DNA of 64,000 nt, from contig NZ_VAWE01000001.1 of assembly GCF_005795905.1 (NCBI RefSeq), positions 1,426,001-1,490,000 on the forward strand, written 5' to 3'. The position numbers and the translations under genes are program-made. Each line of letters opens with the position of its first letter. Position 1 is the stretch's first letter. This DNA is from Streptomyces marianii (GTDB taxonomy: Bacteria > Actinomycetota > Actinomycetes > Streptomycetales > Streptomycetaceae). Of this stretch, positions 19,881 through 49,160 are shown one piece after another. Under the pieces are notes generated by a model. The model saw only the letters and a list, made by a program, of their open reading frames with translations, did no database searches and was not told the origin of the DNA.

Positions 19881-19941
19881 GGTGAGTTGTCTTTACCTGT
19901 CCGTAAGAAGCTGTGGGGTGGGGTGTGGCCCGGCGTGGGCG

Positions 19942-22217: not shown

Positions 22218-25200
22218 TCAGTTACCGGCCGCTGCGACGATCTGTCGCAGCGCGGTAGCGAAGCCGTCCACGAGCCGGCGGACGGTGATGGGGGTGTGGG
22301 CGGACGGCGCGTACATCCAGTCGATCCGCAGTTCGCCGTCGACGACGGCTGCGACGACGTCGATCAGGTGCGGGCGGGTCTGGCCGGGTGCCTGGTCGGC
22401 GCCGAGGCCGTCCAGCCGGTCCCGGATCAGTCCGCTGTCACTCGTGGTGCCGTCCCACTGGCCCAGGTAGTTGAAGCTGATCCGCGGGTGCGGGGCCGCC
22501 GCGAGGGCGGTGTGCGCATGGCTGCCGGGCTCGGACAGGTAGCGCAGGGCGCCGTAGCCGAGTCCCCGTCCGGGCAGCTTGCGCAGGGCCTTCTTCACTG
22601 CTTTCAGGGCCGTGTCCCAGGGGCCCTCGGGCACGTCGAGGGTGACGGGGTAGATGGTGGTGAACCAGCCGACCGTACGGGAGAGGTCCACGTCGTCGAA
22701 CAGCTCTTCGCGGCCGTGGCCTTCGAGGGCGACCGTGACGGGCGAGCCCGCCCACTGGTCCAGCACGCGTCCCAGCGCGGCCAGCAGCACGTCGTTGATC
22801 TGCGTGCGGAACGCGGCGGGCACCCGCTGCAGCAGTGCTGCCGTCTCCGACCGGTCCAGGACCGCGGACTCCACCGCGAGCTCGCCGTACGTGTTCGGCG
22901 CCGGGCCGTCGCACGGGATGTCCACGACGCCGGACGAGGCCTTGCGCCAGTACGCCGTCTCATGGTCGAGGCCGCCGGAGCGGACGAGTTCGGTGAGCCG
23001 CCGCGCCCACTGCTGGTAGCTGCTGGACTTGGCGCCCAGATCGGCCTTGCGGCCGTCGGAGAGCTGCCCGTACACGGTGGCAAGGTCCTCCAGGACGACG
23101 CGCCAGGACACCCCGTCCATCACCAGGTGATGCACTGCCAGGAACAGCCGGGGCGGGGCCGCCGCGTCCGGCATGCGCAGGAAGACGCCCTTCACCAGAC
23201 GGCCGCCCCGCAAGTCCAGCGCGTGCTGGGCTTCCAGCGCGGCGGCGTGCAACGCCTGCTCCGGGTGGGGTGCGGCCGCCACATCCCGCACGGTGAGCAG
23301 ACCGGTGGGGCGCTCGCCGTACTCCTGGGTCCAGTGGCCCGTTCCGTCGTCCGCGTACCGCATACGCAGGGCGTCGTGGTGGGCGACGACCGCCCCCAGG
23401 GCACGCTCCAGCACCGCGGGGTCGGTGTCCGGCGCCAGGGTGACGTGGACGGACATCGCGTACTGGTCGGGGTGGGCGGTGTGCTTGTCGAAGAACCACC
23501 GCTGGATGGGTGTGAGTTCGACCGCGCCGGACGCCTCGGCCGCGTCATCGCCGTCGGTCCCGCCGGCGTCGGCACGCTGGACGACGGAGGCCAGCTCGGC
23601 GACCGTCTGGTGGACGAACATGAGCTTGGTGGTCAGCCGGAGTCCCGCTCGGCGTGCGTGGGAGGTGATCTGGATGGAGAGGATGGAGTCGCCGCCGAGT
23701 TCGAAGAAGTTGTCGTGGACACCGACCCTCTCCGCTCCGAGGACGTCGGCCCAGATCGCGGCCAGTGCCTCTTCGGTGTCGTTGCGGGGCGCGGTATACA
23801 CGGTGCCGGGCCGCTGGGCCCGCACCTCCGGCTCCGGCAGCGAACGGCGGTCGACCTTGCCGCTCGGCGTCAACGGCAACCGCTCCAGCGCCACGAACAC
23901 GGCAGGGACCATATAGTCGGGCAACAACCCGGACAGGTGAGCACGCAACTCGACGACCGGCAGCTCACCATCGGCCACCACATAGGCGACCAGACGACGG
24001 TGACCGTCCGCACCCTCATGCGCGACCACAACACACTCGCGCACCCGATCATGCCCCACGAGCACGGTCTCGATCTCACCGAGCTCGATACGGAAACCAC
24101 GGACCTTCACCTGCTCATCCGCACGACCCAGATACTCCAACGTGCCATCAGCCCGCCACCGGGCCACATCACCCGAGCGATACATCCGCTCCCCCGGCGC
24201 CCCGAACGAGCTGACCGGGAACCGCTCCGCCGTCAAACCCGGACGATGCAGATAACCACGGGCCACACCACCACCGGCGACATGGATCTCACCCGCCACC
24301 CCGACGGGCACCGGCTCACCCCGCTCATCGAGCAGAAACACCCGATAACCCGGAAGCGGACGCCCCACCGGCAGACGCCCCCCGGCCGCCACATGCCCGG
24401 CACCGATCTCCTGGAACGTCACATGCACCGTCGTCTCGGTGATGCCATACATGTTCACCAAACGCGTCCCGGCCGACGCATACCGCCCGAACCACCCCGA
24501 CACATGCTTCGGCTCCAACGCCTCCCCACCGAACACCACCCACCGAAGATCCGGCAGAACCGGAGCCGACGACCCAGCCGCCTCCTCCACCAACTCCCGG
24601 AACATCGACGGCGTCTGACTCAGAACCGTCACCCGCTCACGACGCAACAGATCCCACATCGCCTCGGGACTACGCGCAGTGTCACCACCCACCACGACCA
24701 CACGCCCACCAGTCGCCAACGCACCCCACAACTCCCACACGGAGAAGTCGAACGCATACGAATGGAACACCGTCCACACATCGTCCACACCGAAGCCGTA
24801 CAACGGCTGACAATTGGCCAGCAGATGCAACACCGAACGATGCTCCACCGCAACACCCTTCGGACGACCCGTCGAACCCGACGTATAGATCACATACGCC
24901 AGATCCGAAGCCGACACCGACACCTCCGGAGCAGACACCGGAAGACCGGCAACAACCTCCCCCTCGGCATCCAGATCCACCACCCGCACACCCGCGACCG
25001 GCAAACCCGACCCCAAACCCCCATGGGTGACCAACAACCCGGCACCCGAGTCCTCCAACATGAACGCCAACCGCTCCGCCGGATACGCCGGATCCAACGG
25101 CACATACGCCGCACCCGACTTCAGAATCCCAAGCAGACCCACAACCATCTGCAGACCCCGCTCCACCGACAACGCCACCAGACGCCCCGGACCAGCACCC

Positions 25201-26720
25201 AACCCCACCAAATGCCAAGCCAGCCGATTCGCCGACTCCTCCAACTCCCGATACGTCAGCGACCCACCCTCAAACACCACAGCCACCGCATCCGGCGACA
25301 ACACAGCACGCTCAGCCACCCACCCATGAACCGTGCCCTCCCACGCACCCACACCACCCACACCGGACCACTCACCCACCACCCGCTCCCACTCCCCCAC
25401 CGCAAACATGGGGAGCGCGGAGACGGGCCGGCCGGGGTCGTTCACGGCGGCGCCGAGCAGCGTGTTGAGGTGGTCGCCGAAGCGCGCGATGGTCGACGCG
25501 TCGAACAGCTCGCCGCTGTACTCGACGAGGGCCCGCAGTCCTCCCTCGTGCTCCTCGAACTCGATGGTGAGGTCGAACAGCGCGGTGTCCCGCTCCAGCG
25601 GGTATTCGCTGACGCGGACGTCGCCGAGGCCGGGGTGCATGCCGGGTGCGTTCTGGAGCACAACCATTGCCTGGACGAGTGGCGTGCGGCTGGTGTCGCG
25701 CTGCGGCTGCACGGCCTCCACCAGGCGCTCGAACGGCACGTCCTCGCGGGCGAACGCGTCGAGCACCGTCGACTTCACCTGTCCGAGGAGGGTGTCGAAG
25801 GACGCCTCGGGGTCGACTTCCGAGCGCAGCACGACCGTGTTGACCAGGAAGCCGACCAGCTGCTCCAGGCCCCCGCCGCTCCGGCCGGCGGACGCCGTGC
25901 CGACGGCGATGTCGCGCTGTCCGGTGTAGCGGGCGAAGACGGCCTTGACGGCCGCGGTCAGCGCCATGAAGAGGCTCGCGTCGTGAGCACTCGCCAGCTT
26001 CCTGAGACCCTCGACGGTGGCGGCCGGTACCTCGAAGCCGAGGACCGCGCCCTTGGACGAGCGCACCGCCGGGCGCGGCCGGTCGGTGGGCAGTTCGAGC
26101 GGTGTGATGCCGTCGAGGCGTTCACGCCACCAGTCGAGCTGCTCCTCCAGGAGGCCGCCGTCCTCCAGCCGCCCGCGCTGCCAGGCGGCGAAGTCCGGGT
26201 ACTGGACGGCCACGCGGGGCAGGGCGGACCCGCGGCCCTCGGCGCGGGCCGCGTACAGCTCGCCGAGCTCCCGGGAGGCGACGCCCATGGACCAGCCGTC
26301 GGTGACGATGTGATGCATCCCCAGGACGCAAACGTGTTCGTCCGAGCCGAGCCGGACCAGGAGTACGCGGACGAGTGGGCCGTTCCGCAGGTCGTACGGG
26401 CGGGCCAGTTCCTCCTGGGCGAGTGCGCGCAGCCGCTGCTCGCTCGTGGCCTCCCCGGCACGCCACTCGGGCTCCAGCACGGGGTGGACGATCTGTACGC
26501 CGCGGCCGTCGACCACGTCGAAGGTCGTACGCAGCGCCTCGTGGCGCGCCACCAGGTCGCCGACCGCAGCGCGGAGCGCGTCCGCGTCGAGGGGACCGGA
26601 CAGCCGCATGCCCACGGCGGAGTGGTATTCGGTGCCGCCCTCGTTGAAGTCCTCCAGGAACCACAGACGCTGCTGGCCGAAGGACATGGGCAGCAGGCCG
26701 TCGCGCGGCACGGCCGGGAT
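22218..26720 (-). other. NRPS module 6: C(LCL)-A(Thr-like)-T-E
   Basis: C6 starts at about 26700, A6 occupies about 25411-23830, T6 lies near 23700 and E6 fills the C-terminus from about 23530. By-eye alignment to the GrsA pocket positions gives D-F-W-S-V-G-M-V-H-K, close to the threonine code (DFWNIGMVHK). The E domain (TPIQRWFF; HHLVMDGVSW; EGHGREELFDD; NYLGQWD) should set the last residue to D, which is the configuration PBP-type cyclases require at the acyl donor. Confidence 0.8.
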
Positions 26721-29700
26721 CGCCGGGCCGTCGGCCGGCTCGTCCGGCACGACGGCGGCCGCGAGTTCGGCGACCGTCGGGGCCTCGAAGAGCAGCCGTG
26801 GCGAGAGACGCGTGCCGAGCGCTCGGCGTGCGTGGGAGGTGATCTGGATGGAGAGGATGGAGTCGCCGCCGAGTTCGAAGAAGTTGTCGTGGACACCGAC
26901 CCTCTCCGCTCCGAGGACGTCGGCCCAGATCGCGGCCAGTGCCTCTTCGGTGTCGTTGCGGGGCGCGGTGTACACGGTGCCGGGCCGCTGGGCCCGCACC
27001 TCCGGCTCCGGCAGCGAACGGCGGTCGACCTTGCCGCTCGGCGTCAACGGCAACCGCTCCAGCGCCACGAACACGGCAGGGACCATATAGTCGGGCAACA
27101 ACCCGGACAGGTGAGCACGCAACTCGACGACCGGCAGCTCACCATCGGCCACCACATAGGCGACCAGACGACGGTGACCGTCCGCACCCTCATGCGCGAC
27201 CACAACACACTCGCGCACCCGATCATGCCCCACGAGCACGGTCTCGATCTCACCGAGCTCGATACGGAAACCACGGACCTTCACCTGCTCATCCGCACGA
27301 CCCAGATACTCCAACGTGCCATCAGCCCGCCACCGGGCCACATCACCCGAGCGATACATCCGCTCCCCCGGCGCCCCGAACGAGCTGACCGGGAACCGCT
27401 CCGCCGTCAAACCCGGACGATGCAGATAACCACGGGCCACACCACCACCGGCGACATGGATCTCACCCGCCACCCCGACGGGCACCGGCTCACCCCGCTC
27501 ATCGAGCAGAAACACCCGATAACCCGGAAGCGGACGCCCCACCGGCAGACGCCCCCCGGCCGCCACATGCCCGGCACCGATCTCCTGGAACGTCACATGC
27601 ACCGTCGTCTCGGTGATGCCATACATGTTCACCAAACGCGTCCCGGCCGACGCATACCGCCCGAACCACCCCGACACATGCTTCGGCTCCAACGCCTCCC
27701 CACCGAACACCACCCACCGAAGATCCGGCAGAACCGGAGCCGACGACCCAGCCGCCTCCTCCACCAACTCCCGGAACATCGACGGCGTCTGACTCAGAAC
27801 CGTCACCCGCTCACGACGCAACAGATCCCACATCGCCTCGGGACTACGCGCAGTGTCACCACCCACCACGACCACACGCCCACCAGTCGCCAACGCACCC
27901 CACAACTCCCACACGGAGAAGTCGAACGCATACGAATGGAACACCGTCCACACATCGTCCACACCGAAGCCGTACAACGGCTGACAATTGGCCAGCAGAT
28001 GCAACACCGAACGATGCTCCACCGCAACACCCTTCGGACGACCCGTCGAACCCGACGTATAGATCACATACGCCAGATCCGAAGCCGACACCGACACCTC
28101 CGGAGCAGACACCGGAAGACCGGCAACAACCTCCCCCTCGGCATCCAGATCCACCACCCGCACACCCGCGACCGGCAAACCCGACCCCAAACCCCCATGG
28201 GTGACCAACAACCCGGCACCCGAGTCCTCCAACATGAACGCCAACCGCTCCGCCGGATACGCCGGATCCAACGGCACATACGCCGCACCCGACTTCAGAA
28301 TCCCAAGCAGACCCACAACCATCTGCAGACCCCGCTCCACCGACAACGCCACCAGACGCCCCGGACCAGCACCCAACCCCACCAAATGCCAAGCCAGCCG
28401 ATTCGCCGACTCCTCCAACTCCCGATACGTCAGCGACCCACCCTCAAACACCACAGCCACCGCATCCGGCGACAACACAGCACGCTCAGCCACCCACCCA
28501 TGAACCGTGCCCTCCCACGCACCCACACCACCCACACCGGACCACTCACCCACCACCCGCTCCCACTCCCCCACCGCAAACATGGAAACGGCCGACACCG
28601 GCTGCTCGGGTGCCTCGGCCATGCCGGTGAGCACGGCGTTCAGGTGCGCGGCGATGCGCTCGACGGTGGACGCGTCGAACAGCTCGGGGTCGTAGGCGAG
28701 GGCGTACGCGAGTTCCTCGCCGGCGTAGGCGACGAGGTTCAGGGGGAAGTTGGTGACGTCGGCGCCTTCGAGGCCGTGCAGACGGACGCCGTCGTCGGCG
28801 TGTCCGGTGTCCCCGTCGACGGGGAAGTTCTCGAAGGCGACCAGGCTGTCGAAGAGGTTGGTGCCGCGCTCGACGGGGCTCCAGCCCTGGATGCGGGGCA
28901 GCGGCACGTACTCGTACTGCCGTGCCTCGACCTGGGCCTGCTGCACGCGGGCGAGCCACTCGCCGACCGGCGCGTCACCGTCGATCCCGACGCGCACCGG
29001 GAGGGTGTTGATGAGCATGCCGACCATGGAGTCCCCGCCCGGCAGGTCGGCGGGGCGCCCGGAGACGGTGGCCCCGAACACGACGTCGTGTTCACCCGCG
29101 TACCGGGACAGCAGCAGGGCCCAGGCGCCCTGCACCACCGCGTTGACGGTCAGCCGATGGGCGCGGGCGAATCCGTAGAGCCGTCGCGAGGCATCGGCGG
29201 AGAGCCGGGTCACCAGCCGCTCGGCGGACTGCGCGCGGTGCGTGGCGGTGGGACGGCGGTCGTAGGGAAGCGCCGTCGGCTCGTCGAAACCGTCGAGCAG
29301 GGCGCGCCAGTACGCCTCCGCCTCGGTCAGGTCCTGTCGTTCCAGCCACTCCACGTAGGCGCTGAAGGGGCGCCGCGCGGGCAGGGCTGGCTGCTCGCCG
29401 GCGAGCACCGCCCGGTAGGCCGTGGTCAGCTCGTCGAGCATCTGGAAAGTGCTCCAGCCGTCCAGCACCACGTGGTGGGAGGTACGCACCACCCGAACGG
29501 AGGTGTCGGACGTACGGGCGATGGCGATCCGCATCAGCGGGGCGGCGGACAGATCGATGCCGCGTGCCCGGTCCTCCGCCAGGTGGCGCTCCAGCGCGCG
29601 GGCCTGCCCGTCGGCGGTCAGGTCGCGCCAGTCGAGGTGGACGACCGGCGGCTCGGCGTGTGTGCGCACCACCAGCAGCGGGCGGTCCACCTGCTCCCAC

Positions 29701-32700
29701 ACGACGGCGCCGCGCAGGATCTCCAGGTGGTCGGTGACGTGCTGCCACGCCCGTTCCAGGAGCTCCGGTTCCCTGACTCCGTCCAGGACGAAGCTCGTCT
29801 GCTCGAAGTAGGCGCCGGACCCGGGCTCGGCGAGGGTGTGGAAGAGCATGCCGCTCTGCATGGGCGTGAGCGGGTAGACGTCCTCGACGTCCCGGCCGTC
29901 ACCGGCGATCCGGTCCACCGCGGCCTGGTCCAGGCCGGCGAGCGGGAAGTCGGACGGCGTCGCACCACCGCTGGCCGGGTCCTGGCAGTGCTCCAACAGG
30001 GCGCGCAGCGCCGTCAGATGCTCGTGCGCCACCCGCTCCACGGTGGACCGGTCGAAGACCTCGCCGGAGAAGATCCATGTGAAGCCGAGGCTGCCGTCCT
30101 CCACCATGCCGACGACGTCGAGGAGGTACGGGCGGGGCTCGTCCGGGGCGTGGTCGTGGCCGAGGGCGGGGAGGCGGTCGCGGATCAGGCCGTCCCGGGT
30201 GGTGGTGCCGTCCCACTGGCCGAGGTAGTTGAAGCTGATCGGCGGCAGCCGGTCGTCGCGCAGCGCGTGGCCCGGGGTGCCGGCCGGGGAGAGGAACCGC
30301 AGGGCGTCGTAGCCGAGGCCGCGCCCAGGGACGGCACGCAGCTGCTCCTTGACGGACTTGACCGTCTCGCCCCAGGCCCGTCCGGCGGGGAGGGTGAGGG
30401 CGACCGGGAAGTGGGTGGTGTACCAGCCGACGGTGCGGGACAGGTCGAGGTCGTCGAAGATCTCCTCGCGGCCGTGTCCCTCCAGGCCGAGGACCAGGCG
30501 GTCAGCGCCGGTCCAGTCGGCGAGGGTGCGGCTGAGTGCGGTGACGAGGACGTCGTTGATCTGGGTGCGGTACACCGACGGGACGCGGTGGAGCAGCGCC
30601 GCGGTCTCCTCGTGGCCCAGGCGTACCTCGACGGTCTGCTCGGCGGCGGTGACGTTGCGGCCGGCCGGGTGGTCCACGGGGAGGGCCGGTGCGTTGTCGG
30701 GGTCGACGGAGCGCCAGTGGTCGACCTCGTGGTCGAGGCCGCCGTCGCGGACGTGCGCGGTGAGGTGCTGGGCCCACTGCTGGTAGCTGCTGGTCTTCGC
30801 ACCGAGGTCGGCGGGGCGGCCGTGGGCGAGCTGCTCGTAGGCGGTGGCCAGGTCCTCCAGGACGACGCGCCAGGACACCCCGTCCATGACGATGTGGTGG
30901 ACTGCCAGGAACAGGCGGGAGGTCTCGCCGTCGCCGAACCGGATGTGAACACCCTTGACCAGGGTTCCGGTGGACAGGTCGAGGGAGCGCTGGGCGTCCA
31001 GGGCTGCGTCGTTCAGGGCCCGGTCGACGTCTTCGGCGTCTGTGATGTCGCGGACGGTGAGGAGGCCGGTGGGCCGGTCGCCGTACTCCTGGATCCACTC
31101 GGTGCCCTGGCGGGTGTAGCGCATACGCAGGGCGTCGTGGTGGGTGACCACCGCGTCGAGCGCCCTCTCCAGCAGCGCGGTGTCCGTGCCGGGGGCGAGC
31201 CCGAGGTGCACCGACATCGCGTAGTGGTGGGGGTCGACGGTGTGTTCGGTGAAGAACCAGTTCTGGATCGGTGTCAGTTCGGCACGTCCCGAGACCTCCG
31301 CCGGTGCGGCGGCGGAGGGCCGCTCGGCAGTGTCCACGACTCCCGCGAGGGCGGCGATGCTCTGGTGGAGGAACAGCAGTTTCGAGGTGAGGTGGAGTCC
31401 GGCCCGGCGGGCACGGGAGACGACCTGGATGGACAGGATCGAGTCCCCGCCCAGGTCGAAGAAGTTGTCGTGGACACCGACCTTCTCCACCCCGAGGACG
31501 TCCGCCCAGACGGCGGCGAGGATCTCCTCCGTCCCGTCGCGCGGCGCGGTGTAATCCGAACCGGGCCCACCCGCCCGGACCTCGGGCTCGGGCAGGGCCC
31601 GCCGGTCCACCTTGCCGCTCGGAGTGAGCGGCAGCCCCTCCAGCGACACGAACAACGCGGGCACCATGTAGTCCGGCAGCGTGCCGGCGAGGTGGGAGCG
31701 CAGGTCGGAGGTCCGTGCCTCGGCCCCGGCGCCATCGGTCACAACGTACGCCACCAGGCGCCGCCGGCCGGAGTCCTCCTGCCGGGCCAGGACCACCGCG
31801 TCCCGCACGTCCGGGTGGGTGAGAAGGGCGCTCTCCACCTCGCCGAGCTCGATGCGGAAGCCGCGGATCTTCACCTGGTCGTCTGCACGACCCAGGAACT
31901 CCAGTTCCCCGCCGGCCGGCCTTCGGGCCCGGTCGCCGGTGCGGTACAGCCGGTCACCGGGCACGAAGGGGCTGTCGACGAACCGCTCGGCGGTCAGGTC
32001 GGGCCGCCCGTGGTAGCCGCGGGCGACGCCGTCGCCGCCGATCCAGATCTCGCCCGGCACGCCCGGCGGGACAAGGTTCATGTGCGTGTCCAGGACGTAG
32101 ACGCGGGTGTTGGGCAGCGGGCGGCCGATGGGCACGTACACGCTTCCGCCCAGGTTCTCCTCGTTCGGCACGAAGACGGTCGAGTCGATGGTGGCCTCGG
32201 TGCCGCCGTAGGCGTTGACGACGACGCAGTCGCGCCGGATCCGGCGCAGCAGCGTACGGCAGTCCTCGACACGCCAGCCCTCGGAGCCCACGGAGATCAG
32301 CCGCAGCGGCGGGAAGTCCTCGCCGCGGCGCTCGACTTCCTGCAGGACTGCGTTGAGCAGCGACGGGACGATCTCCAGGCCGGTGGCGCCGGTTTCGGCG
32401 ATCAGGTCGAGCAGCGCCGGGGGTTCCGTCGTGACGTCCTTCGACGCGATGATCAGCGCCCCGCCGAAAGGCAGGGAGCGGATGAGGTCGGCGAAGAAGA
32501 GGTCGACGGAGAGGCTGGACACCGACAGGAAGCGCGGCTTCAGGTCCTCGAGACCGTACCGCTCGTCCCAGGCGGCGAGGATGTGCCGAACGTTGCGGTG
32601 CTCGACGGCGACACCCTTGGGGTTGCCCGTGGAACCCGAGGTGTAGATGACGTACGCCAGGTCGTGCGGGGCGACGGTGGTCGACGGCGGGCTGACGGGC

Positions 32701-34601: not shown

Positions 34602-34859
34602 TGGAAGGATCCCCCAGGGGAGTGCGTTCGGCGGGTCGGGGAGACGTCCCCCGGCGGTGGTGTCCGGAGCGGTTGCTGCCCGGTCGGTGGTGACGGGACG
34701 CCGGCACCGGGTCGATGACGACCGCGTGCTCCCTGGCCGGCGCCCGGGCGCCGGGACGGCCGAGGCCGGAGCGTCTCCACGCCGGGGAGTGCGGCCGACG
34801 TACCGGCGCCGGAACGCCATGGTCGGAGCGTCCGTGGCCGGGGTGGCGGCGTGGTGGCG
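34602..34859 (-). other. 258-base gap between mbtH and NRPS-2
   Basis: No open frame or hairpin I can support. It is long for an operon spacer, so an internal promoter for NRPS-2 and downstream genes is possible. Confidence 0.4.
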
Positions 34860-35066
34860 TCAGTCGGCGGTGGCGCGCAGGCTCCGAGGGCGCATGTCGG
34901 TCCAGTTGGCCTCGACGTACGCGAGGCACTCCTCGCGGGCCCGGTCGGTGAGGACGGCCGTCCAGCCGTCCGGGACGGCGGTGCCGGTGGGCCACAGCGA
35001 GTGCTGGCCCTCCTCGTTGACGAGGACGTCGTAGGAACGGTCGGTCTTCTCAAAGGGGTTGGACAC
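34860..35066 (-). CDS. MbtH-like protein
   Basis: A small chaperone that binds adenylation domains and is needed for folding or activity of many NRPSs. 68 residues starting at GTG 35064-35066, with AAAGG upstream. The full signature is present: NPFEKTDRSYDVLVNEEGQH, SLWPTG, VPDGW, and the closing YVEANWTDMRPRSL. It lies 37 bases after NRPS-1, between the two synthetase genes. At least one A domain here presumably depends on it. Confidence 0.95.
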   Translation of the reverse strand: MSNPFEKTDRSYDVLVNEEGQHSLWPTGTAVPDGWTAVLTDRAREECLAYVEANWTDMRPRSLRATAD

Positions 35067-35103
35067 GATGGACCTTTCTGAAGGAAGGGGGGAGCGAGGT
35101 GGG

Positions 35104-38100: not shown

Positions 38101-38270
38101 GTGGTCGGCGACCCGCTGCCAGGCACGGGCGAGGAGGGCGGGGTCGGTGACGCCGTCGAGCTCGAAGGTCATCTGCTCGGAGTAGGTGCCCGAGTCCGAC
38201 AGGGTGTGGAAGAGCATGCCGCTCTGCATGGGCGTGAGCGGGTGGATGTCCTCGATGTCGCGTCCGGTTC
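35104..38270 (-). other. NRPS module 3: C(DCL)-A(Val)-T
   Basis: C3 starts near 38260, A3 is about 36960-35380 and T3 is near 35270. The pocket aligned to GrsA reads D-A-F-W-V-G-G-T-F-K, one conservative change from the valine code DAFWIGGTFK. There is no E domain, so L-Val is predicted. C4 of the next protein is LCL type, which agrees. Confidence 0.85.
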
Positions 38271-41200
38271 CGGCGATCCGGTCCACGGCTGCCTGGTCGA
38301 GCCGGGCCAGCGGGAAGTCGGACGGTGTCACGCCGCCGCTCTCGGGGCGCAGGCAGTGCTCCACCACGCCGCGCAGGGCGGCGAGGAACGCGTCGGCGAG
38401 CTGCTGGACGGTGTCGGTGCGGTGGACGCCGGGGGCGTGGATCCAGTCGATGCGCAGTTCACCGTCGCCGACGTCGGCAACGATGTCGATGAGGTGCGGG
38501 CGGGGCTGCTCGGGGGCCTGGTCGGTGCCGAGCGGCGCAAGGCGGGCGCGCACCAGACCGCTGTCGCTGGTGATGCCGTCCCACTGGCCAAGGTAGTTGA
38601 AGCTGATCTCGGGGGGCGGAGCGGTGGCGAGGGCGGTGTGCGCGGGACTGCCCGGCTCCGACAGGTGGCGCAGGGCTCCGTGGCCGATGCCGCGGCCCGG
38701 GACGGCCCGCAGCTGCTCCTTCAGGGACTTCAGAGCCTGCCCCCAGTCGCCGTCGGGGACGTCCAGGGTGACGGGGTGGATGGTGGTGAACCAGCCGACG
38801 GTGCGGGACAGGTCGATGTCGTCGAAGAGTTCCTCGCGGCCGTGGCCTTCGAGGGCGATGGTGACGGGGGCGCCCGTCCAGTCGCGCAGAACGCGGCCGA
38901 GGGCGGTCAGCAGGACGTCGTTGATGTGGGTGCGATATGCGGCGGGTACGCGCTGCAGCAGGGCCTCGGTCTCGGCGCGGCTGAGGCGTACGGAGGCGCT
39001 GGCCGCGTCCCCGAAGGTGTTGGCTCTGATGTCGTGGCCGTCGCGGGGCAGCGGACGGACGGCGCCGGACGTCTCCTGCCAGTGGGGGATCTCGTCGTCG
39101 AGGGCGCCGGAGCGGACGTGTGCGGCCAGGCGCCGCGCCCACTGCTGACAGCTGCTCGACTTGACGCCGAGGTCGACGGTCCGCCCCTCTGCCAGTTGTG
39201 CGTACGCGGTGGCCAGGTCCTCCAGGACGACGCGCCAGGACACCCCGTCCATCACCAGGTGGTGCACCGTCAGGAACAGACGGGGCAGCCGGGACGGGCC
39301 GAGGCGGAAGAACACCCCCTTGGCCAGAACTCCGCTCATCAGGTCGAGCGAGCGCTGCGCCGCGAGGGCGGCATCGTGCAGGGCGGCGTCCCGCTCCTCG
39401 TCCGCGAGGGCGGAGAGGTCTCGCACGGTCAGCGGCTGCGCGGGGGCGCCGCCGCCGTACTCCTGGATCCACTCGGTGCCCTGGCGCGTGTAGCGCATAC
39501 GCAGGGCGTCGTGGTGGGTGACCACCGCGTCGAGCGCCCTCTCCAGCAGCGCGGTGTCGGTCTCCGGGGCCAGTTCGACCTGTACCGACATGCCGTAGTG
39601 GTGGGGGTTGACGGTGTGTTCGGTGAAGAACCAGTCCTGGATGGGGGTGAGGGCGACCTCGCCCGCGGCATCGGCCGGTGCGGCGGCGGAGGGCCGCTCG
39701 GCAGTGTCCACGACTCCCGCGAGGGCGGCGATGCTCTGGTGGAGGAACAGCAGTTTCGAGGTGAGGTGGAGTCCGGCCCGGCGGGCACGGGAGACGACCT
39801 GGATGGACAGGATCGAGTCCCCGCCCAGGTCGAAGAAGTTGTCGTGGACACCGACCTTCTCCACCCCGAGGACGTCCGCCCAGACGGCGGCGAGGATCTC
39901 CTCCGTCCCGTCGCGCGGCGCGGTGTAATCCGAACCGGGCCCACCCGCCCGGACCTCGGGCTCGGGCAGGGCCCGCCGGTCCACCTTGCCGCTCGGAGTG
40001 AGCGGCAGCCCCTCCAGCGACACGAACAACGCGGGCACCATGTAGTCCGGCAGCGTGCCGGCGAGGTGGGAGCGGAGCTCACCGGTGGTGAGGTCGTGGT
40101 CGGTCACCAGGTAGCCGACCAGGCGCGCCCGGCCGGCCTCGTCGCGGTGGACGGCCACCACCGCGTCCCGCACGTCCGGGTGGCGGCCCAGGGCGGTCTC
40201 GATCTCGCCGAGCTCGATGCGGAAGCCGCGGACCTTGACCTGGTCGTCGGCGCGCCCCAGGTACTCGAGGCTGCCGTCGGCCCGCCAGCGGGCCACGTCA
40301 CCCGAGCGGTACATGCGCTCGCCCGGCGCGCCGTACGGGTCGGCCGTGAAGCGCTCGGCAGTCAGGCCGGGCCGCCCGTGGTAGCCGCGGGCCAGGTGCG
40401 GGCCGGCGATGTACAGCTCGCCCGGCACGCCGACGGGCACGGGCTGGAGCGCCGCGTCGAGCAGCCGGATGCTGGTGTTGGGCAGCGGGGTGCCGATGGG
40501 GGGCACCGCCCCGCCGGTGAGCGGCGCGCTCATGGTGGCGACGACGGTGGACTCGGTGGGCCCGTAGGCGTTGATCATCCGCCGGCCGGCCGACCAGCGG
40601 GCCACCAGGTCGCCTGTGCTGGCCTCGCCGCCCACGACCAGGGTGCGCAGTCCGTCGAGGCCCTCGGGCGTCAGGGTGGCCACGGCGGAGGGAGCCAGCA
40701 GGGTGTGGGTGATGCGGCGTTCGCGCAGGAAGGTGTGGAGCGCCTCGCCGACGAGCGGCCCGTGCGGCGGCAGGACGAGCGTGGCGCCCGCCGGCAGGGC
40801 CATCAGGACTTCCATGACGGCGCCGTCGAACGAGGAGGAGGCGAACTGCAGGACTCGGCTGTCCTCCGTGACCTCCAGCCGCGCGATCTCGGCGGCGGCG
40901 AGGTTGCCGATCCCGCGGTGCGGGACGAGGACGCCCTTGGGGGTGCCGGTGGAGCCCGAGGTGTAGATGACGTACGCGAGGTCATCGGCACGCGGGGCCG
41001 GCTCGGGTGCGGCGGTGGGGAGCGCGGCGAGCTTCCCGGCGTCCCGGGCGAGGTCCACGACGTCCGCGCCGGTGTCCGGCAGGCGCCGTACGAGCTCGGT
41101 GCGGGTGACGACGATCCGGGCGCCGGAGTCCCGGAGCATGAAGGCCAGCCGGTCCGCCGGGTAGCCGGGGTCCAGGGGCAGGTAGGCGGCACCGGCCTTC

Positions 41201-44200
41201 ATGATGCCGAGCAGGCCGACGATCGCCTCCACGCCGCGCTCGGCGAACAGGCCGACGAACGTGCCGGGTCCGGCGCCGAGGGACCGGAGGTGGTGGGCGA
41301 GCCGGTTGGCCCGCTCGTCCAGTTCGCGGTAGCTGAGGACGGTGTCCGTGTCCTCCACGGCGGGCGCGTCGGGACGGCGGCGCGCGCTCGCCTCGACCAG
41401 CTGCGGGAACGTCCCGGTGGGAACGTCGGTGCGAGCACCGTTCCACTCGCGTACGACCTGCTCGTACTCGCCCTCCGTCAGCATCGGCAGGGTGGCGAGT
41501 GCGCGGTCGGGCTCGGCCGCGGCGGCGGACAGCACGGTGGACAGGTGCCCCGCGAAGCGGGCGACGGTGGCCTCGTCGAACAGGGCGGTGCTGTAGCCCA
41601 CCTGGGCGGTGAGCCCGTCGTCGGTCTCGAAGAACTCGACGGTCAGGTCGAACGGCGCGGCCTCGCGGTGCACCGGGTAGCCGGCGGCGCGGACGCCGGG
41701 CAGGCCGACGCGGTCGCTCGGCGCGTTCTGCAGGACGACCATGGCCTGGACGAGGGGGGTGCGACTGGTGTCGCGGGCGGCGCCGACTGCGTCGACCAGT
41801 CGTTCGAAGGGCACGTCCTCGTGGGCGAAGGCCTCCAGGACGGTCTCCTTGAGCTGCGCCAGCAGGTCCCCGTACGACATGTCGGGATCGACGTGGGAGC
41901 GCAGCACGACCGTGTTGACCAGGAAGCCGACGAGGTTCTCCAGGTCACCGTGGTTGCGACCGGAGGAGGCGGTGCCGACGGCGACGTCCGCCTGGCCCGA
42001 CCAGCGGGCCAGGACCGCCTTCACCGCCGCGGTCAGTGCCATGAAGAGGGTGGCGCCCTGCCGTTGCGCGAGGTCTCTGAGGGCTGTGGTGGTGGCAGCG
42101 GGGACGGGGAAGGTGTACGTGGCGCCGGCGGAGGAGCGTATGGCAGGGCGGGGCCGGTCCGTGGGCAGTTCCAGCGGCGCGATGCCGTCGAGGCGCTCGC
42201 GCCACCAGTCCAGGTGCCGGTCGAGGAGGCCGCCGCCTTCGAGACGGCCGCGTTGCCAGGCGGCGAAGTCGGGATACTGCACGGGGGTGTCGCCGAGGCG
42301 GGACTCGCGGCCCTCGGTGTGCGCGGCGTACAGCTCGCCCAGCTCGCGGGTGACGATGCCCATGGACCAGCCGTCGGTGACGATGTGATGCATCCCCAGG
42401 ACGCACACGTGCTCGTCGTCGGTGAGGCGGACGAGCAGGACGCGGACCAGGGGGCCGGTCGTCAGGTCGTACGGGCGGGTCGTCTCGGCGCGTACGAGAT
42501 CCCGCAGCCGGTCTTCGCGCAGCGCGGGTGCGACGCCTGTGAGGTTCTCGGTGCGCCACTCGGGAGCGAGCCGCGGGTGGACCACCTGGACGCCGCGGCC
42601 GCCGACGACGCCGAAGGTCGTGCGCAGCGACTCGTGGCGGGCGGTCAGGTCGTGGACGGCGGCGCGCAACGCGTCGGCGTCGAGGGCGCCGGTGAGCCGC
42701 ATGCCCGTGGCGGTGTGGTACTCGGCGCTGCCTGGGTCGAAGTCCTCCAGGAACCAGAGGCGCTGCTGGCCGTACGACATGGGCAGGGCGCCGTCGCGGG
42801 GGACGGAGGGGATGGAGGAGTCCTCGACGGACTCCTCGGGTGCGACGAACGCGGCGAGTTCGGCGATGGTCCGGGTGTCGAAGAGGACGCGGGGCGGCAG
42901 CCTGACGCCCAGCGCCGCGCGCATCCGGGAGACGGCTCGGACGGAGAGGATGGAGTTGCCGCCGAGGGCGAAGAAGTCGTCGTGGACGCCGATGCCGTCG
43001 ATGCCGAGGACCTCGGACCAGACGCCGGCGAGGGTCTCCTCGACGGGGTTGCGGGGGGCGGCGCGGTCGGTGCCGCCGCTCTCCTGGACGGTGGCGGGGT
43101 CGGGCAGGGCCTTGCGGTCCACCTTTCCGTTCGGGGTGAGCGGCAGGGTGTCGAGCACGACGATCGTCGAGGGGATCATGTGCTCGGGCAGACCGTCGGC
43201 GAGGTGGGCGCGCAGGTCGTCGGGGGTGGGGCGGCGCTCGCCGGAGGGTGAGACGTAGGCCAGCAGGTTGGTGTTGTGGGTGACGACCACGGCCTGTGCG
43301 ATGGCGGGGTGGAGCGCGAGGGCGCTCTCGATCTCGCCGAGTTCGATGCGGAAACCGCGGACCTTGACCTGGTCGTCGGCGCGCCCCAGGTACTCCATGG
43401 TGCCGTCGGCGTTCCAGCGGGCCACGTCGCCGGAGCGGTACATGCGCTCGCCGGGGGCGCCGTAGGGGTTGGCGACGAAGCGCTCGGCGGTGAGGCCGGG
43501 CCGTCCGTGGTAGCCGCGGGCCAGACCTGCGCCGGCGATGTACAGCTCCCCGCGTACACCGACGGGGACCGGGCGCAGGGCGTCGTCGAGGACATACACC
43601 CGGAAGTTGGCGATGGGGGTGCCGATCGGTGGGACGGTCGCACCGCTGAGCGGGCCGCTCATGGTGGCGCAGACGGTGGTCTCGGTCGGGCCGTAGGCGT
43701 TGATCATCCGGCGGCCGCGGGACCAGCGGGCGACCAGGTCGGCGGTGCTGGCCTCGCCGGCGACGACGAGCGTGGCACCGTCCGGCAGGCCGCGGCCCTC
43801 GGGGAGGACGGCCACGGTCGCCGGGGTGAGGGTGGCATGGGTGACACCGTGTTCGGCGGCGTAGGCGGCGAGGGGCTCGCCGGGTGCGAGGGTCTCCTTG
43901 GAGCCCATGACCAGGGCGGCGCCGGTCAACAGGCCCATGCACACCTCCCAGAACGCCGCGTCGAAACTGGCCGAGGCGAACTGGAGGACGCGGCTGTCGG
44001 GGGTGACGTCGAACGCGTCGGCCTGGACGGCGGCCAGGTTGCCGATGCCGGTGTGGGAGACGAGCACGCCCTTGGGGCGGCCGGTGGAGCCGGAGGTGTA
44101 GATGGCGTAGGCGAGGTCCCCGGGCTCGAGCGTCACCTCGGGGGCGGTGGCCGGGTGGGCGTCCAGCGCGGTCCGGTCGTCGGTGAGGTCCACCAGCACG

Positions 44201-45312
44201 GCGCCGGCTTCCGGCAGCCGGTCGCGCAGTTCGCGCTGGGTGACGACGATGTGGGCGCCGGAGTCCTGGAGCATGTACGCGAGCCGGTCGGCCGGGTAGG
44301 CGGGGTCGAGCGGCAGGTAGGCCGCGCCGGCCTTCATGATGCCGAGCAGGCCGGCGGCCATGGCGGCGCCGCGCTCGACGCAGAGGCCGACCAACCGATC
44401 ACGGCCGGCGCCCCGTTCGATCAGGTGGTGGGCGATCCGGTTTGCCCGCTCGTCCAGTTCGCGGTAGGTGACGGGGCCGTGTTCGTCGATGACTGCGGTC
44501 GCTTCGGGGCGGGCGGCGACCTGGGCGGCGTACAGCTCGGGGAACGTACCGGTGGGGACCTCGCGCGCGGTGTCGTTCCAGGCGCGTACGACCTGCTCGA
44601 ACTCGCCGTCGGTGAGCAGGGGCAGAGCGGGGAGCGGCAGGGACGGGTCGGCCGCAGCGCCGGTGAGCAGTACGGCGAGGTGTCCGGCGAGGCGGGCGGC
44701 GGTCGTCTCGTCGAAGAGGGCGGTGCTGTGGCGGACGCGTATACGCGACCCGGCGGCGGCGATCTCCACGGACAGGTCCAGCGGATCGAAGTCCTGTCGT
44801 CCGGACGGAAGTTCGTCGAGAACGGCGACCATGGCCTGGACGTAGGGGGTGATGCTGGTGTCGCGCTGGGGGGCGAGGGCGTCGACGAGTTCGGCGAAGG
44901 GGACGCCGTCGTGGGCGAGGGCGTCGCTCAGGCCGCGAGCCGTGTGGCGCAGCAGGGTGGCGAAGGGCGCCGTGACGTCGACGTCGGTACGCAGGACGAC
45001 GGTGTGCCCGGTGCCCGGGGAGACGGTGCCGAGGGCGATGTCCTCCTGCCCGGAGTAGCGGGCGAGCAGGGCCGTGACGGCGGCCGCGAGGACCGCGGTG
45101 GGGGTGGTGTCGTGACCGTGCGCCAGCTCCGTCAGCGCCGCGGCGGCGGGGGCGGGGAGCTCGCAGTCGTGGGTGGCGATGCCGGTCGACCGGACGACCG
45201 GACGTGGCCGGTCGGCCGGCAGCTCCAGGGGCGGAACGCCGTCCAGTCGGCTCCGCCAGAACTCGGTCTGGGCGGGGAGTGCCCGGTTCACCGGCACGTC
45301 GGCGCGAGCCAC
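35104..45312 (-). CDS. Non-ribosomal peptide synthetase, modules 1-3 (NRPS-1)
   Basis: A 3402-residue initiating synthetase starting at GTG 45310-45312, with GGAGG seven bases upstream. Order: truncated C, A-T / C-A-T-E / C-A-T. The N-terminus begins in the middle of a condensation fold (AQTEFWRSRLDG...) and lacks the HHxxxDG half, so the first domain cannot condense and the protein should start the chain. C2 (MSYGQQRLWFLEDF, HHIVTDG) is LCL. C3 (PLTPMQSGMLFHTL, HHVLLDG) is DCL after E2. T domains show LGGNS (T1) and LGGDS (T2, T3). It ends just after T3, passing the chain to NRPS-2. It lies 150 bases after the cyclase gene. Confidence 0.95.
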   Translation of the reverse strand: MARADVPVNRALPAQTEFWRSRLDGVPPLELPADRPRPVVRSTGIATHDCELPAPAAAALTELAHGHDTTPTAVLAAAVTALLARYSGQEDIALGTVSPGTGHTVVLRTDVDVTAPFATLLRHTARGLSDALAHDGVPFAELVDALAPQRDTSITPYVQAMVAVLDELPSGRQDFDPLDLSVEIAAAGSRIRVRHSTALFDETTAARLAGHLAVLLTGAAADPSLPLPALPLLTDGEFEQVVRAWNDTAREVPTGTFPELYAAQVAARPEATAVIDEHGPVTYRELDERANRIAHHLIERGAGRDRLVGLCVERGAAMAAGLLGIMKAGAAYLPLDPAYPADRLAYMLQDSGAHIVVTQRELRDRLPEAGAVLVDLTDDRTALDAHPATAPEVTLEPGDLAYAIYTSGSTGRPKGVLVSHTGIGNLAAVQADAFDVTPDSRVLQFASASFDAAFWEVCMGLLTGAALVMGSKETLAPGEPLAAYAAEHGVTHATLTPATVAVLPEGRGLPDGATLVVAGEASTADLVARWSRGRRMINAYGPTETTVCATMSGPLSGATVPPIGTPIANFRVYVLDDALRPVPVGVRGELYIAGAGLARGYHGRPGLTAERFVANPYGAPGERMYRSGDVARWNADGTMEYLGRADDQVKVRGFRIELGEIESALALHPAIAQAVVVTHNTNLLAYVSPSGERRPTPDDLRAHLADGLPEHMIPSTIVVLDTLPLTPNGKVDRKALPDPATVQESGGTDRAAPRNPVEETLAGVWSEVLGIDGIGVHDDFFALGGNSILSVRAVSRMRAALGVRLPPRVLFDTRTIAELAAFVAPEESVEDSSIPSVPRDGALPMSYGQQRLWFLEDFDPGSAEYHTATGMRLTGALDADALRAAVHDLTARHESLRTTFGVVGGRGVQVVHPRLAPEWRTENLTGVAPALREDRLRDLVRAETTRPYDLTTGPLVRVLLVRLTDDEHVCVLGMHHIVTDGWSMGIVTRELGELYAAHTEGRESRLGDTPVQYPDFAAWQRGRLEGGGLLDRHLDWWRERLDGIAPLELPTDRPRPAIRSSAGATYTFPVPAATTTALRDLAQRQGATLFMALTAAVKAVLARWSGQADVAVGTASSGRNHGDLENLVGFLVNTVVLRSHVDPDMSYGDLLAQLKETVLEAFAHEDVPFERLVDAVGAARDTSRTPLVQAMVVLQNAPSDRVGLPGVRAAGYPVHREAAPFDLTVEFFETDDGLTAQVGYSTALFDEATVARFAGHLSTVLSAAAAEPDRALATLPMLTEGEYEQVVREWNGARTDVPTGTFPQLVEASARRRPDAPAVEDTDTVLSYRELDERANRLAHHLRSLGAGPGTFVGLFAERGVEAIVGLLGIMKAGAAYLPLDPGYPADRLAFMLRDSGARIVVTRTELVRRLPDTGADVVDLARDAGKLAALPTAAPEPAPRADDLAYVIYTSGSTGTPKGVLVPHRGIGNLAAAEIARLEVTEDSRVLQFASSSFDGAVMEVLMALPAGATLVLPPHGPLVGEALHTFLRERRITHTLLAPSAVATLTPEGLDGLRTLVVGGEASTGDLVARWSAGRRMINAYGPTESTVVATMSAPLTGGAVPPIGTPLPNTSIRLLDAALQPVPVGVPGELYIAGPHLARGYHGRPGLTAERFTADPYGAPGERMYRSGDVARWRADGSLEYLGRADDQVKVRGFRIELGEIETALGRHPDVRDAVVAVHRDEAGRARLVGYLVTDHDLTTGELRSHLAGTLPDYMVPALFVSLEGLPLTPSGKVDRRALPEPEVRAGGPGSDYTAPRDGTEEILAAVWADVLGVEKVGVHDNFFDLGGDSILSIQVVSRARRAGLHLTSKLLFLHQSIAALAGVVDTAERPSAAAPADAAGEVALTPIQDWFFTEHTVNPHHYGMSVQVELAPETDTALLERALDAVVTHHDALRMRYTRQGTEWIQEYGGGAPAQPLTVRDLSALADEERDAALHDAALAAQRSLDLMSGVLAKGVFFRLGPSRLPRLFLTVHHLVMDGVSWRVVLEDLATAYAQLAEGRTVDLGVKSSSCQQWARRLAAHVRSGALDDEIPHWQETSGAVRPLPRDGHDIRANTFGDAASASVRLSRAETEALLQRVPAAYRTHINDVLLTALGRVLRDWTGAPVTIALEGHGREELFDDIDLSRTVGWFTTIHPVTLDVPDGDWGQALKSLKEQLRAVPGRGIGHGALRHLSEPGSPAHTALATAPPPEISFNYLGQWDGITSDSGLVRARLAPLGTDQAPEQPRPHLIDIVADVGDGELRIDWIHAPGVHRTDTVQQLADAFLAALRGVVEHCLRPESGGVTPSDFPLARLDQAAVDRIAGTGRDIEDIHPLTPMQSGMLFHTLSDSGTYSEQMTFELDGVTDPALLARAWQRVADHVGVLRAALEWQDVERPLMVVRRRADMPVTHLDWRDVPAGERDEAVRRFLAEDRARPVDLTSAPLMRLTLIRLTDTSVRLVCAFHHVLLDGWSAFDVLAQTHTAYADLAAGREPALPARRPFRAYVDWLERQDLDEAEAYWRETLDGFDAPTPLPTVRHGASGHRTGTTGRIVRRLAPEASRELFDFARRHRLTVNTVLQGAWALLLARHAGERDVVFGATVSGRPADLPGADSMIGMLINTLPVRVRVDDTAPVTAWLAEIQRAQVEARHYEYVPLPRIQACSAVKRGDDLFRSLVVFENYPMDDEAAAAHGLRVRGLAGTEATNYPLNLVAYAGDELAYTLAYDAELYDEVAAARLCGHLETLLTSLPADGDLRVSAVPMLSGAEAELTVRTWNDTAHELPEASLPELFAARAAEQPDDVALTYAGEDLTYRELDERANRLAHHLTSLGTGPEDLVGICLERGAHAVVALLAVLKAGAAYVPLDPDHPAERLAYMMGNAGVKLLVTEAKLRDGLPSCEVRIVDLDRDATAISARPADTAPASPAPDQLAYVLYTSGSTGHPKGVLTPHRAVVRLVHGTVYTDIGRGDTMAQFASLSFDASTFELWAALLRGARLAVHPPQLPTTAELGRFLKEHGVTHLWLTAGLFHQIVDDDIDVLRDLRQLVAGGDRLSPEHCARVLDALPALRLTNGYGPTEATTFTTTHDLRGALGTGSVPLGSPLANTRVYVLTEALEPAPVGVSGELYIAGEGLARGYLGRAGMTAERFVADPLGAPGARMYRSGDLVAWRPDGTLDFLGRTDGQVKIRGFRVETGEIEAALVAHRAVGDAAVVPHTDPGSGRTVLVGHLVPAGSTLLPGAAELRAHLAASLPEHMLPAAFTTLDALPLTANGKVDRKALPAPEQRLATGTRYEAPATSTEQLIAEAWQELLGVERVGVHDNFFELGGDSLLALRTASRINDLFGTDLTPRALFDQPTVAETAEGVEELILAELEAAARTP
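38290..42800 (-). other. NRPS module 2: C(LCL)-A(hydrophobic, unassigned)-T-E
   Basis: C2 begins near 42780, A2 is about 41480-39900, T2 is near 39820 and E2 is about 39670-38290. The pocket reads D-G-M-L-V-G-A-V-V-K. Apart from the invariant Asp and Lys it is entirely apolar, so a neutral hydrophobic residue is expected, but I cannot assign it with confidence. E2 (TPIQDWFF, HHLVMDGVSW, NYLGQWD) predicts D configuration. Confidence 0.7.
39674..40074 (-). repeat. 401-bp perfect repeat, module 2 copy
   Basis: Twin of 31300-31700. The flanking A-domain cores are unrelated (different pockets), so only the A-terminal/T/linker portion has been shared. Confidence 0.9.
42830..45312 (-). other. NRPS module 1: (partial C)-A(Phe)-T, loading
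   Basis: The C remnant occupies about 45312-44640, A1 about 44640-43060 and T1 is near 42970. The pocket reads D-A-W-T-V-A-A-V-C-K, two conservative changes from the GrsA phenylalanine code DAWTIAAICK. There is no E domain and the next C is LCL, so L-Phe (or a close aromatic) should be the first residue and the N-terminal nucleophile for cyclisation. Confidence 0.85.
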
Positions 45313-45462
45313 GTTTGTACCTCCAGGGAATTCGGCTTCAGGGCGTGGGGTGCCAGGGCAGGGGCCCGGAAGCCGGTGGGGAATGTCGGAAAGGTGAGGC
45401 GAAGGGGCCCGCCGTCCGGGCCGGCCGGGGCGTGATGACCGGGGCGTGGCGGGTGGGTGCGG

Positions 45463-46845
45463 TTACGCGGTCGTCGCCCGCCGGGCGGAACGGCCGCCCA
45501 GCTGCATGAGGGTGACGTCGCCGGTGGCGGGGTCCGTGACGAACCGGCCGGTGTAGGAGCCGGCCCGGGTGTCGGTCCGCCGGGCGGTGAAGACCAGGTC
45601 GTCGTGGAGGGTCACGTCGGCGGCGAGCCCGGTGCTGTCCGTCAGCAGCAGGCCGCCGCCCCGGTGGGCGCGGACGACGAAGGAGGTGTCGCCGTTGCGG
45701 TAGTCACCGGTGAAACGGTCGAGGCCTGACGTCAGGGACGGTGCCGTGGGGATACCGGCGCGGTGGTCGCCGACGGGCACGCCCAGTTCGTGCAGCGAGT
45801 CGACGAGCTCCGCCCACATCTGGGTTCCGGTGGTGGCGTTGGTGGTCAGGGCGACTGCGGTGCCACTGTCCGGGTGGAACCTCAGGTGGGCGGTACCGCC
45901 GTCGACGGTGCCGTCGTGGCCGTACCAGTGCCCGTCAGCCGAGGCGTAGTGCGCCAGGCCCAGTCCCCAGCCGTCGGCCATGCCGAAGGCGTCGGCGGCG
46001 GACACCCGCGCTCCCATCTCGGCCCGCTGCTCCTCGGGCAGCAGGGTGCCGGATTCGGGGTGCGTGCCCAGGTGCAGCCCGGCGAGGGCGACCAGGTCGT
46101 CGGCGCTGCCGGCGAGTCCGCTCGCCGGCGCCCAGCTCAGCGGGAGGAAGAGGCCGACGGGGCGGGCAGTGCGCTGCCGTCCCGGCTGGACCGCGTGGCC
46201 GTCGGCCAGGGGGCGCTGCCCGGTCGGGGAGCCGTTCACGAACACCGGGTCGATGCCGAGTGGCCGGAGAAGCACATTCTCCATGACGGCCTGCCACTTC
46301 ATGTCTGTGACGGCCTCGATGACCCGGCCCAGAATGTTGTAACCGGAATTCGAGTACGAGAAGCAGTGGCCCGGTTCGTGCAGGCTGCGGGTGGTCGCGA
46401 CACTCGCCGTGTAACGGGCGAGAGAGGCCTCTTCGACATCGTCCAGTTCATGATCGGCGACCAGTCCGGCGGTGTGGCTGAGCAGGTTCCGCAGCGTGAC
46501 GGAGGAAATCGCCTCGTCCACCGCGCCGTCCCACTCCGCCAGGTACTCACCGACCGGGTCGTCCCATTCGAGGTCTCCGTCGGAGACTAACTGAGCCACC
46601 AGGGTGGCCGTGAACGCCTTGGTCACCGAGCCGAATGCGAAAGCCGTCCCCGTGGTCACCGGGTCGGCCGTGCCGGCACGTGTCACACCGGTGGCCAGGG
46701 ACAGGCTTCCCCCCGCATGACGGACCGTCAACTGTGCGCCGGGAACCGAGTGCTCGTGCGCGAGCTCGCATAGTCGGTCCGCCGCAAGGTGCGCTTCCAC
46801 GTCTCCCCTCTCATCGAACTCCGCTGGTACGGCCAGCCGCACCAT
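45463..46845 (-). CDS. PBP-type stand-alone thioesterase / peptide cyclase
   Basis: Releases and head-to-tail cyclises NRPS-bound peptides in trans, as SurE does for surugamides and its relatives in desotamide, ulleungmycin and mannopeptimycin pathways. The ATG at 46843-46845 gives 460 residues, the family's usual size. GTG 46798-46800, preceded by AGGGGAG, is an alternative start. The class C beta-lactamase/PBP fold has S73-V-T-K76, Y164-S-N166 and a late HDGT. A lipocalin-like C-terminal domain (about 365-460) is characteristic of these cyclases. The synthetase lacks a TE and ends in an E domain, exactly the partner arrangement expected. Leu86 is encoded by TTA (46588-46590), the rare bldA-dependent codon. 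Confidence 0.93.
   Translation of the reverse strand: MVRLAVPAEFDERGDVEAHLAADRLCELAHEHSVPGAQLTVRHAGGSLSLATGVTRAGTADPVTTGTAFAFGSVTKAFTATLVAQLVSDGDLEWDDPVGEYLAEWDGAVDEAISSVTLRNLLSHTAGLVADHELDDVEEASLARYTASVATTRSLHEPGHCFSYSNSGYNILGRVIEAVTDMKWQAVMENVLLRPLGIDPVFVNGSPTGQRPLADGHAVQPGRQRTARPVGLFLPLSWAPASGLAGSADDLVALAGLHLGTHPESGTLLPEEQRAEMGARVSAADAFGMADGWGLGLAHYASADGHWYGHDGTVDGGTAHLRFHPDSGTAVALTTNATTGTQMWAELVDSLHELGVPVGDHRAGIPTAPSLTSGLDRFTGDYRNGDTSFVVRAHRGGGLLLTDSTGLAADVTLHDDLVFTARRTDTRAGSYTGRFVTDPATGDVTLMQLGGRSARRATTA
46588..46590 (-). promoter_or_regulatory. TTA (bldA-dependent) leucine codon in the cyclase gene
   Basis: In-frame codon 86 (GCT-CAG-TTA-GTC). In Streptomyces, TTA codons need the bldA leucyl-tRNA that accumulates late in growth. 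I saw no other in-frame TTA among the cluster genes I checked, so the cyclase alone may be gated. Confidence 0.85.
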
Positions 46846-46930
46846 GGGGGGTGTGGGTAGCCGTACCACGCATTCTCGATCAGCTGTTCACCGAACGGCA
46901 AGAGCTTTCGACATAAGGAAAAAACGCAGG

Positions 46931-48328: not shown

Positions 48329-48343
48329 CGTGCGTCACTCGGC

Positions 48344-49006: not shown

Positions 49007-49160
49007 GGAGACTCCTGCTCGCTAGGATCGTGCCAACCAACTGCCGGACAAGCCGCAGAATGGTGAAGGGAAAGTTGAGCGGTGTGGGGGCCATCAGCAT
49101 AGGCGCGGCGGGATGGCTGACGCTACGCCGACCGTCATGTGTCCGGGGTGAGAAGGGTCG

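Follow-up and report, generated by a model that had tools for sequence, protein, structure and literature searches.

This locus raises the question of what its large nonribosomal peptide synthetase (NRPS) system makes, and whether that product is new. The window (the whole stretch of 64,000 nucleotides analysed, positions 1,426,001 to 1,490,000 of contig NZ_VAWE01000001.1 of Streptomyces marianii) holds two NRPS genes and, adjacent to them, a gene for a penicillin-binding-protein-type (PBP-type) thioesterase/cyclase (Table 1). An earlier note on this DNA had read these genes as a six-module assembly line for a cyclic hexapeptide with alternating L and D residues, and had recognised no known compound with the predicted sequence. 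The first part of that reading is confirmed; the second does not stand. The cluster is almost certainly a Streptomyces copy of the flk/fau gene cluster, with cyclofaulknamycin or a close congener as its product. The kind of cluster is already published and the window adds a further copy. Given this tie to a characterised product, there is no need to hunt the cluster as the source of a new compound.

Module order, codes and the flk cluster

Pfam places three adenylation (A) and three thiolation (T) domains on each NRPS protein, together with four (NRPS A) or five (NRPS B) Condensation-family stretches in which condensation (C) and epimerisation (E) domains are pooled. Profiles built on the window's own domains give the order C-remnant-A1-T1 / LCL-A2-T2-E / DCL-A3-T3 // LCL-A4-T4-E / DCL-A5-T5 / LCL-A6-T6-E along the minus strand. 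The LCL and DCL types of C domain and the E domains were told apart by active-site motif within the window rather than against an outside C-domain reference set: HHIVTDGWS for LCL, HHV[VL]LDGWS for DCL and HH[LI]VMDGVS for E. Modules 2, 4 and 6 each carry an E domain, and the C-domain types fit each junction, as the earlier note had claimed; its module logic is sound. The C domain of module 1 is a remnant consisting of the C-terminal part only (Pfam model positions 193-454), and the earliest active-site motif of NRPS A lies at residue 975. NRPS B starts later in the database copy, which counts 4127 amino acids (aa).

Two further statements of the earlier note hold in part. Pfam finds no thioesterase within the NRPS proteins, as stated, and a stand-alone type II thioesterase has to be added to the cluster. 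Likewise the extent given for the assembly line (22218-46845) omits the accompanying genes at 15663-22193 and 46931-53989.

The A-domain codes, read by alignment to GrsA numbering, are DAWTVAAVCK, DGMLVGAVVK, DAFWVGGTFK and DLAESGAIDK for modules 1 to 4, and DFWSVGMVHK for both modules 5 and 6. A PDB search with the A1 domain added nothing. Searching with part of NRPS B was uninformative as well, the best 120 of 1380 matches being mostly long multi-module proteins.

The codes and the gene set both lead to the flk cluster of S. albus J1074, from which cyclofaulknamycin has been isolated and whose deletion abolishes the cyclofaulknamycin ions (Horbal et al. 2021, PMC8399532). Table 3 of that paper gives the codes DAWTVAAVCK (A1), DGMLVGAVVK (A2), DAFWLGGTFK (A3), DLAESGAVDK (A4) and DFWSVGMVHK (A5 and A6). 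The window codes equal these at 58 of the 60 positions, and modules 1, 2, 5 and 6 are identical. FlkP is described as A(Phe)-PCP-C-A(Leu)-PCP-E-C-A(Val)-PCP and FlkS as C-A(Arg)-PCP-E-C-A(Thr)-PCP-C-A(Thr)-PCP-E (PCP, peptidyl carrier protein; PMC8399532). Both clusters thus have six modules with E domains in 2, 4 and 6 on two NRPS genes, with an MbtH gene (flkR) in between. They also share a cyclase of the FlkO kind (published as an MppK-type hydrolase), a VioC-type hydroxylase (the VioC homologue FlkT), a type II thioesterase (FlkX), an ArsR regulator (FlkW), an MFS transporter (FlkU), an ABC transporter (FlkK/L) and two two-component pairs, and no VioD gene is found in either. The published ring has a mass of 731.39 Da and consists of L-threo-phenylserine, D-Leu, L-Val, D-capreomycidine, L-Thr and D-allo-Thr; it was inactive at 0.03-64 µg/mL across the panel tested (PMC8399532). 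The residues and the alternating L/D ring predicted in the earlier note match this isolated compound.

Novelty had been made to depend on there being no characterised cluster with the same codes and a known product, and the flk cluster is one. The idea of an unknown compound was rejected on the agreement of the codes with those of a published cluster. That the product is a new and unrelated cyclic hexapeptide with alternating D and L residues is most improbable: the module logic taken by itself would allow it, and the 58 matching code positions and the gene set speak for a characterised cluster instead.

Several observations weigh against identifying the window with flk. Two code residues differ from S. 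albus, with V for L in module 3 and I for V in module 4. The likeness was drawn from the codes and from the kinds of genes named in the published text, with sequence identity assessed by proxies only, which themselves speak for flk: 84% for the hydroxylase (to a protein database-named S. albidoflavus, P0188) and 72% for the cyclase (to a protein named Streptomyces sp. FR-008, P0017, 80 member sequences). We take J1074 and FR-008 to be members of the S. albidoflavus group. No one-to-one counterparts of flkG and flkH (methyl- and mannosyltransferase) were assigned in the window. None of the scanned window proteins matched a methyltransferase, and the glycosyltransferase-family genes at 54070-57670 may be the cluster's flkH part or be unrelated to it. 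The term P450 is absent from the main text of PMC8399532, so that the P450 gene of the window is left without a named flk counterpart. Also, the hydroxylase stays below both relevant NCBIfam cut-offs (334.4 bits against 345 for GntD, the enduracididine hydroxylase, and 285 bits against 418.6 for VioC), and the S. marianii genome has no VioD above cut-off (best 222 bits against 390.9).

Release and cyclisation of the hexapeptide

Among solved structures the cyclase gene matches SurE (6KSU, E 2.2e-96) and Ulm16 (8FEK, E 1e-68), which bears out the adjacent PBP-type cyclase of the earlier note. Residues 34-464 align to 6KSU with the SxxK, YSN and HDG motifs kept (by eye), which we take to be the motifs that define stand-alone two-domain PBP-type thioesterases. 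The gene adjoins an NRPS ending in an E domain. Enzymes of this type couple an N-terminal L residue to a C-terminal D residue, and for FlkO the native C-terminal residue is D-allo-Thr, with D-Thr and D-Ala accepted as well (PMC11735501). This substrate range agrees with the prediction for module 6.

Based on the domain order and the flk precedent, the following pathway may be proposed. NRPS A would load Phe (or phenylserine), extend it with Leu, which is converted to the D form, and then with Val. NRPS B would add an arginine-derived residue (D-capreomycidine in the final product), Thr, and a second Thr that is epimerised to D-allo-Thr. The VioC-type enzyme would hydroxylate the C-beta of Arg, upon which the guanidine can close to capreomycidine, and the P450 probably yields beta-phenylserine by beta-hydroxylation of Phe at residue 1. 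Finally, the PBP-type enzyme would take the hexapeptide thioester and form the head-to-tail bond in trans between L-residue 1 and D-residue 6; the earlier note had proposed this bond, and it matches the published flk system. The expected product would be cyclo(L-threo-phenylserine, D-Leu, L-Val, D-capreomycidine, L-Thr, D-allo-Thr), C34H53N9O9, or a close congener, and we infer that the strain makes the same compound as S. albus.

It might be argued that the main product is linear and released by hydrolysis, which the earlier note had named as a refutation of cyclisation. The fau cluster (Tryon et al. 2020) has the same predicted residues and also no VioD, but only the linear compound, faulknamycin, is reported from it and the cyclic form was never detected there; its phenylserine was assigned as D-threo, against L-threo in S. 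albus, and FauE/FauG are without a clear loading module (all per PMC8399532). From S. albus both the ring and a linear form have been isolated (PMC8399532), so that the refutation named in the earlier note is half borne out in print. Read against the assembly order, the published linear sequence Thr-phenylserine-Leu-Val-capreomycidine-Thr is circularly permuted, and ring opening between the two threonines would fit this better than direct release. A linear main product is accordingly very unlikely, and cyclofaulknamycin or a close congener is still the preferred product.

Two other families were considered and rejected. The desotamide family (with ulleungmycin) and surugamide share the stand-alone PBP-type cyclase acting on a C-terminal D residue (SurE in surugamide); they differ in their residues, and to our knowledge they have no VioC-type gene. 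The desotamide/ulleungmycin family was set aside on its residues and genes. A mannopeptimycin-type product was discarded on its residues, Ser, Gly, beta-methyl-Phe, D-Tyr and two beta-hydroxyenduracididines, which differ from those predicted here. The likeness to mannopeptimycin (mpp) lies in an MppK-type hydrolase, a hexapeptide ring that contains a cyclic guanidine residue, and mannosyltransferases (PMC8399532).

The arginine-derived residue

The best solved relative of the hydroxylase is VioC. In the alignment to 2WBQ (by eye) HxE...H and DxD are kept, which we take to be the metal-binding and guanidine-binding residues of VioC, respectively. Since neither the VioC nor the GntD cut-off is passed, only an enzyme of the VioC/GntD kind is claimed. 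The VioD model gives 22 matches in the genome, none of them in the window, and the best (C1:379632-380681) is about equally near to GntC, PRK07324 and VioD, all under the NCBIfam cut-off.

These observations could point to a congener with the same scaffold and beta-hydroxyarginine, Arg or another cyclic arginine, with Phe in place of phenylserine, or with an added sugar. Such a product would go with the missing classical VioD, with a hydroxylase that scores better against the GntD model than against VioC, with a module 4 code that is one residue off the S. albus code, and with the two glycosyltransferase families at 54070-55875 and 55988-57670. Nonetheless we consider it rather unlikely. The flk cluster is without VioD yet its product holds capreomycidine, and it has a mannosyltransferase gene yet the isolated product is sugar-free (PMC8399532). 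In the faulknamycin and muraymycin pathways capreomycidines can form on the NRPS by dehydrogenation and Michael addition (PMC10367076).

In S. albus the ring closure has been assigned to XNR_1347, whose deletion cut production 5- to 12-fold; the deletion primer XNR_1347R reads ATG GCC TAC CTC GAC CAC, i.e. MAYLDH (PMC8399532). We take MAYLDH as the start of XNR_1347. The S. marianii genome holds at C1:2456329-2457432 (locus L041) a class V aminotransferase-family gene (PF00266) that opens MAYLDHAATTPMLPEA (MAYLDHAATTP...). Cysteine desulfurases such as IscS typically open in this way. This is a hint that the published 'aminotransferase' could be a cysteine desulfurase, in which case its deletion effect may be indirect. 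The other XNR_1347 primer implies a neighbour ending in RERA; as no such neighbour occurs at any of the six loci L039-L044, synteny gives no support to this idea. A degenerate DNA pattern for MAYLDH had no match in the S. marianii genome, even though a protein with that start exists there.

Relatives, the repeat and neighbouring genes

A scan of named genomes for the PBP gene gave ten Streptomycetaceae loci. The C remnant of module 1 scores in nine of them, the tenth (L005) ending before it. The hydroxylase search covered nine of these ten genomes (that of L004 was left out) and found the gene in all nine, at 70-87% identity and always beside an NRPS E domain. At E <= 1e-100 it is present in eight of 392 sampled genomes of the genus (our own included), three of which are additional to the PBP scan. 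Twelve hydroxylase loci of relatives were annotated (L011, L014, L015, L017-L022, L032, L034 and L036). The type II thioesterase is seen in ten (exceptions: L022, a 3.3-kb contig, and L036), as is the P450 (exceptions: L022, and L034 with no P450 between MFS and ArsR), and an erythromycin-esterase-like gene lies beside the cluster in six.

Six modules with E domains in 2, 4 and 6 are found in all five copies that are whole and free of N: the window, S. cyaneus (L015/L016), L032/L033, L034/L035 and L036/L037 (S. mashuensis). Strain MP113-05 (L011) has a gap of 1,797 N in modules 5-6, and in the other six loci of the PBP scan NRPS B was not followed through or is broken there. Past the module 4 E domain, CC228A (L013/L014) and NRRL S-118 (L021, 786 N) have a single C-A-T-E, which reflects either an assembly line of five modules or a repeat that has collapsed. 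In CC228A the PBP, FtsX and A-domain genes have broken reading frames, and the five-module form of this strain is therefore taken as unproven.

The comparative value of the cluster lies in its presence in a number of Streptomyces, where relatives with changed codes could make new compounds. In L034/L035 and L036/L037, modules 1, 4 and 6 keep their codes up to one residue (I for V in module 1 of L035; DLAESGAVDK for module 4 in both). The codes of module 2 (DALA[IV]GGSLK), module 3 (DVWC[IV]A[MQ]VYK) and module 5 (DVWQFGKIQK and DVWDLGLIQK) differ, and judged by these codes the two clusters possibly encode new hexapeptides. The wider proposal, that S. marianii makes an undescribed flk-type congener (with another arginine-derived residue, or glycosylated) and that flk-type scaffolds form a family undergoing diversification, is tentative and somewhat doubtful.

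The two Thr modules of the window share a long direct repeat with one mismatch (Table 1). Their A domains are unusual in codon usage: third positions are G in 58%, T in 26% and C in 15%, and GGC makes up 6% of the Gly codons in A5/A6 against 61-75% in A1-A4. In the Thr A domains of relatives this share is 33% and 40% (L015), 42% and 65% (L032), 24% in the longer and 64% in the short fragment of L011, and 69%, 76%, 62% and 88% in L014, L021, L034 and L036, respectively. Repeat and codon usage would fit a recent gene conversion involving both Thr modules, together with an A-domain lineage that has codon preferences of its own. A repeat of this length could also give rise to assembly collapse, or to module loss in cells.

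Table 1. Positions of the cluster genes, their neighbours and the repeat in the window.
Feature	Position	Strand	Description	Basis
Erythromycin-esterase-family protein	15663-16994	minus	membership uncertain	PF05139 E 1.5e-80
Type II thioesterase	17081-17818	minus	FlkX-like	PF00975 E 2.2e-47; start by eye
ArsR-type regulator	17836-18651	minus	FlkW-like	HTH_20 E 3.7e-11; name by family only
Cytochrome P450	18702-19880	minus		PF00067 E 1.3e-26; name by family only
MFS transporter	19942-21213	minus	FlkU-like	TIGR00900 E 3.1e-32, under cut-off
Fe(II)/alpha-ketoglutarate hydroxylase	21213-22193	minus	VioC/GntD kind, FlkT-like	NCBIfam, 2WBQ alignment
NRPS B	22218-34820	minus	FlkS-like, 4200 aa; C-A(Arg/capreomycidine)-T-E, C-A(Thr)-T, C-A(Thr)-T-E	domain profiles, codes
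Direct repeat, 1,766 bases, one mismatch	23646-25411, 26820-28585	minus	A6 + most of T6, A5 + most of T5; offset +3174	
MbtH-like protein	34860-35138	minus	FlkR-like, between both NRPS genes	PF03621 E 6.9e-24
NRPS A	35104-45312	minus	FlkP-like, 3402 aa; C-remnant-A(Phe)-T, C-A(Leu)-T-E, C-A(Val)-T	domain profiles, code match
PBP-type thioesterase/cyclase	45463-46869	minus	FlkO-like; predicted role in hexapeptide release and ring closure	SurE/Ulm16 matches
Sensor histidine kinase, pair 1	46931-48328	minus		
LuxR-family response regulator, pair 1	48344-49006	minus		
ABC transporter permease (FtsX family)	49161-51263	minus		PF02687 E 2e-23
ABC transporter ATPase	51158-51904	minus		PF00005 E 1.7e-33; start by eye
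Sensor histidine kinase, pair 2	52014-53333	plus		
LuxR-family response regulator, pair 2	53321-53989	plus		
Glycos_transf_1 and GT87 family genes	54070-55875, 55988-57670	minus	beside regulators	

An IS4-type transposase frame (13499-15286, plus strand; PF13006 E 2.5e-26, PF01609 E 3e-13) sits at the left edge of the region around the cluster.

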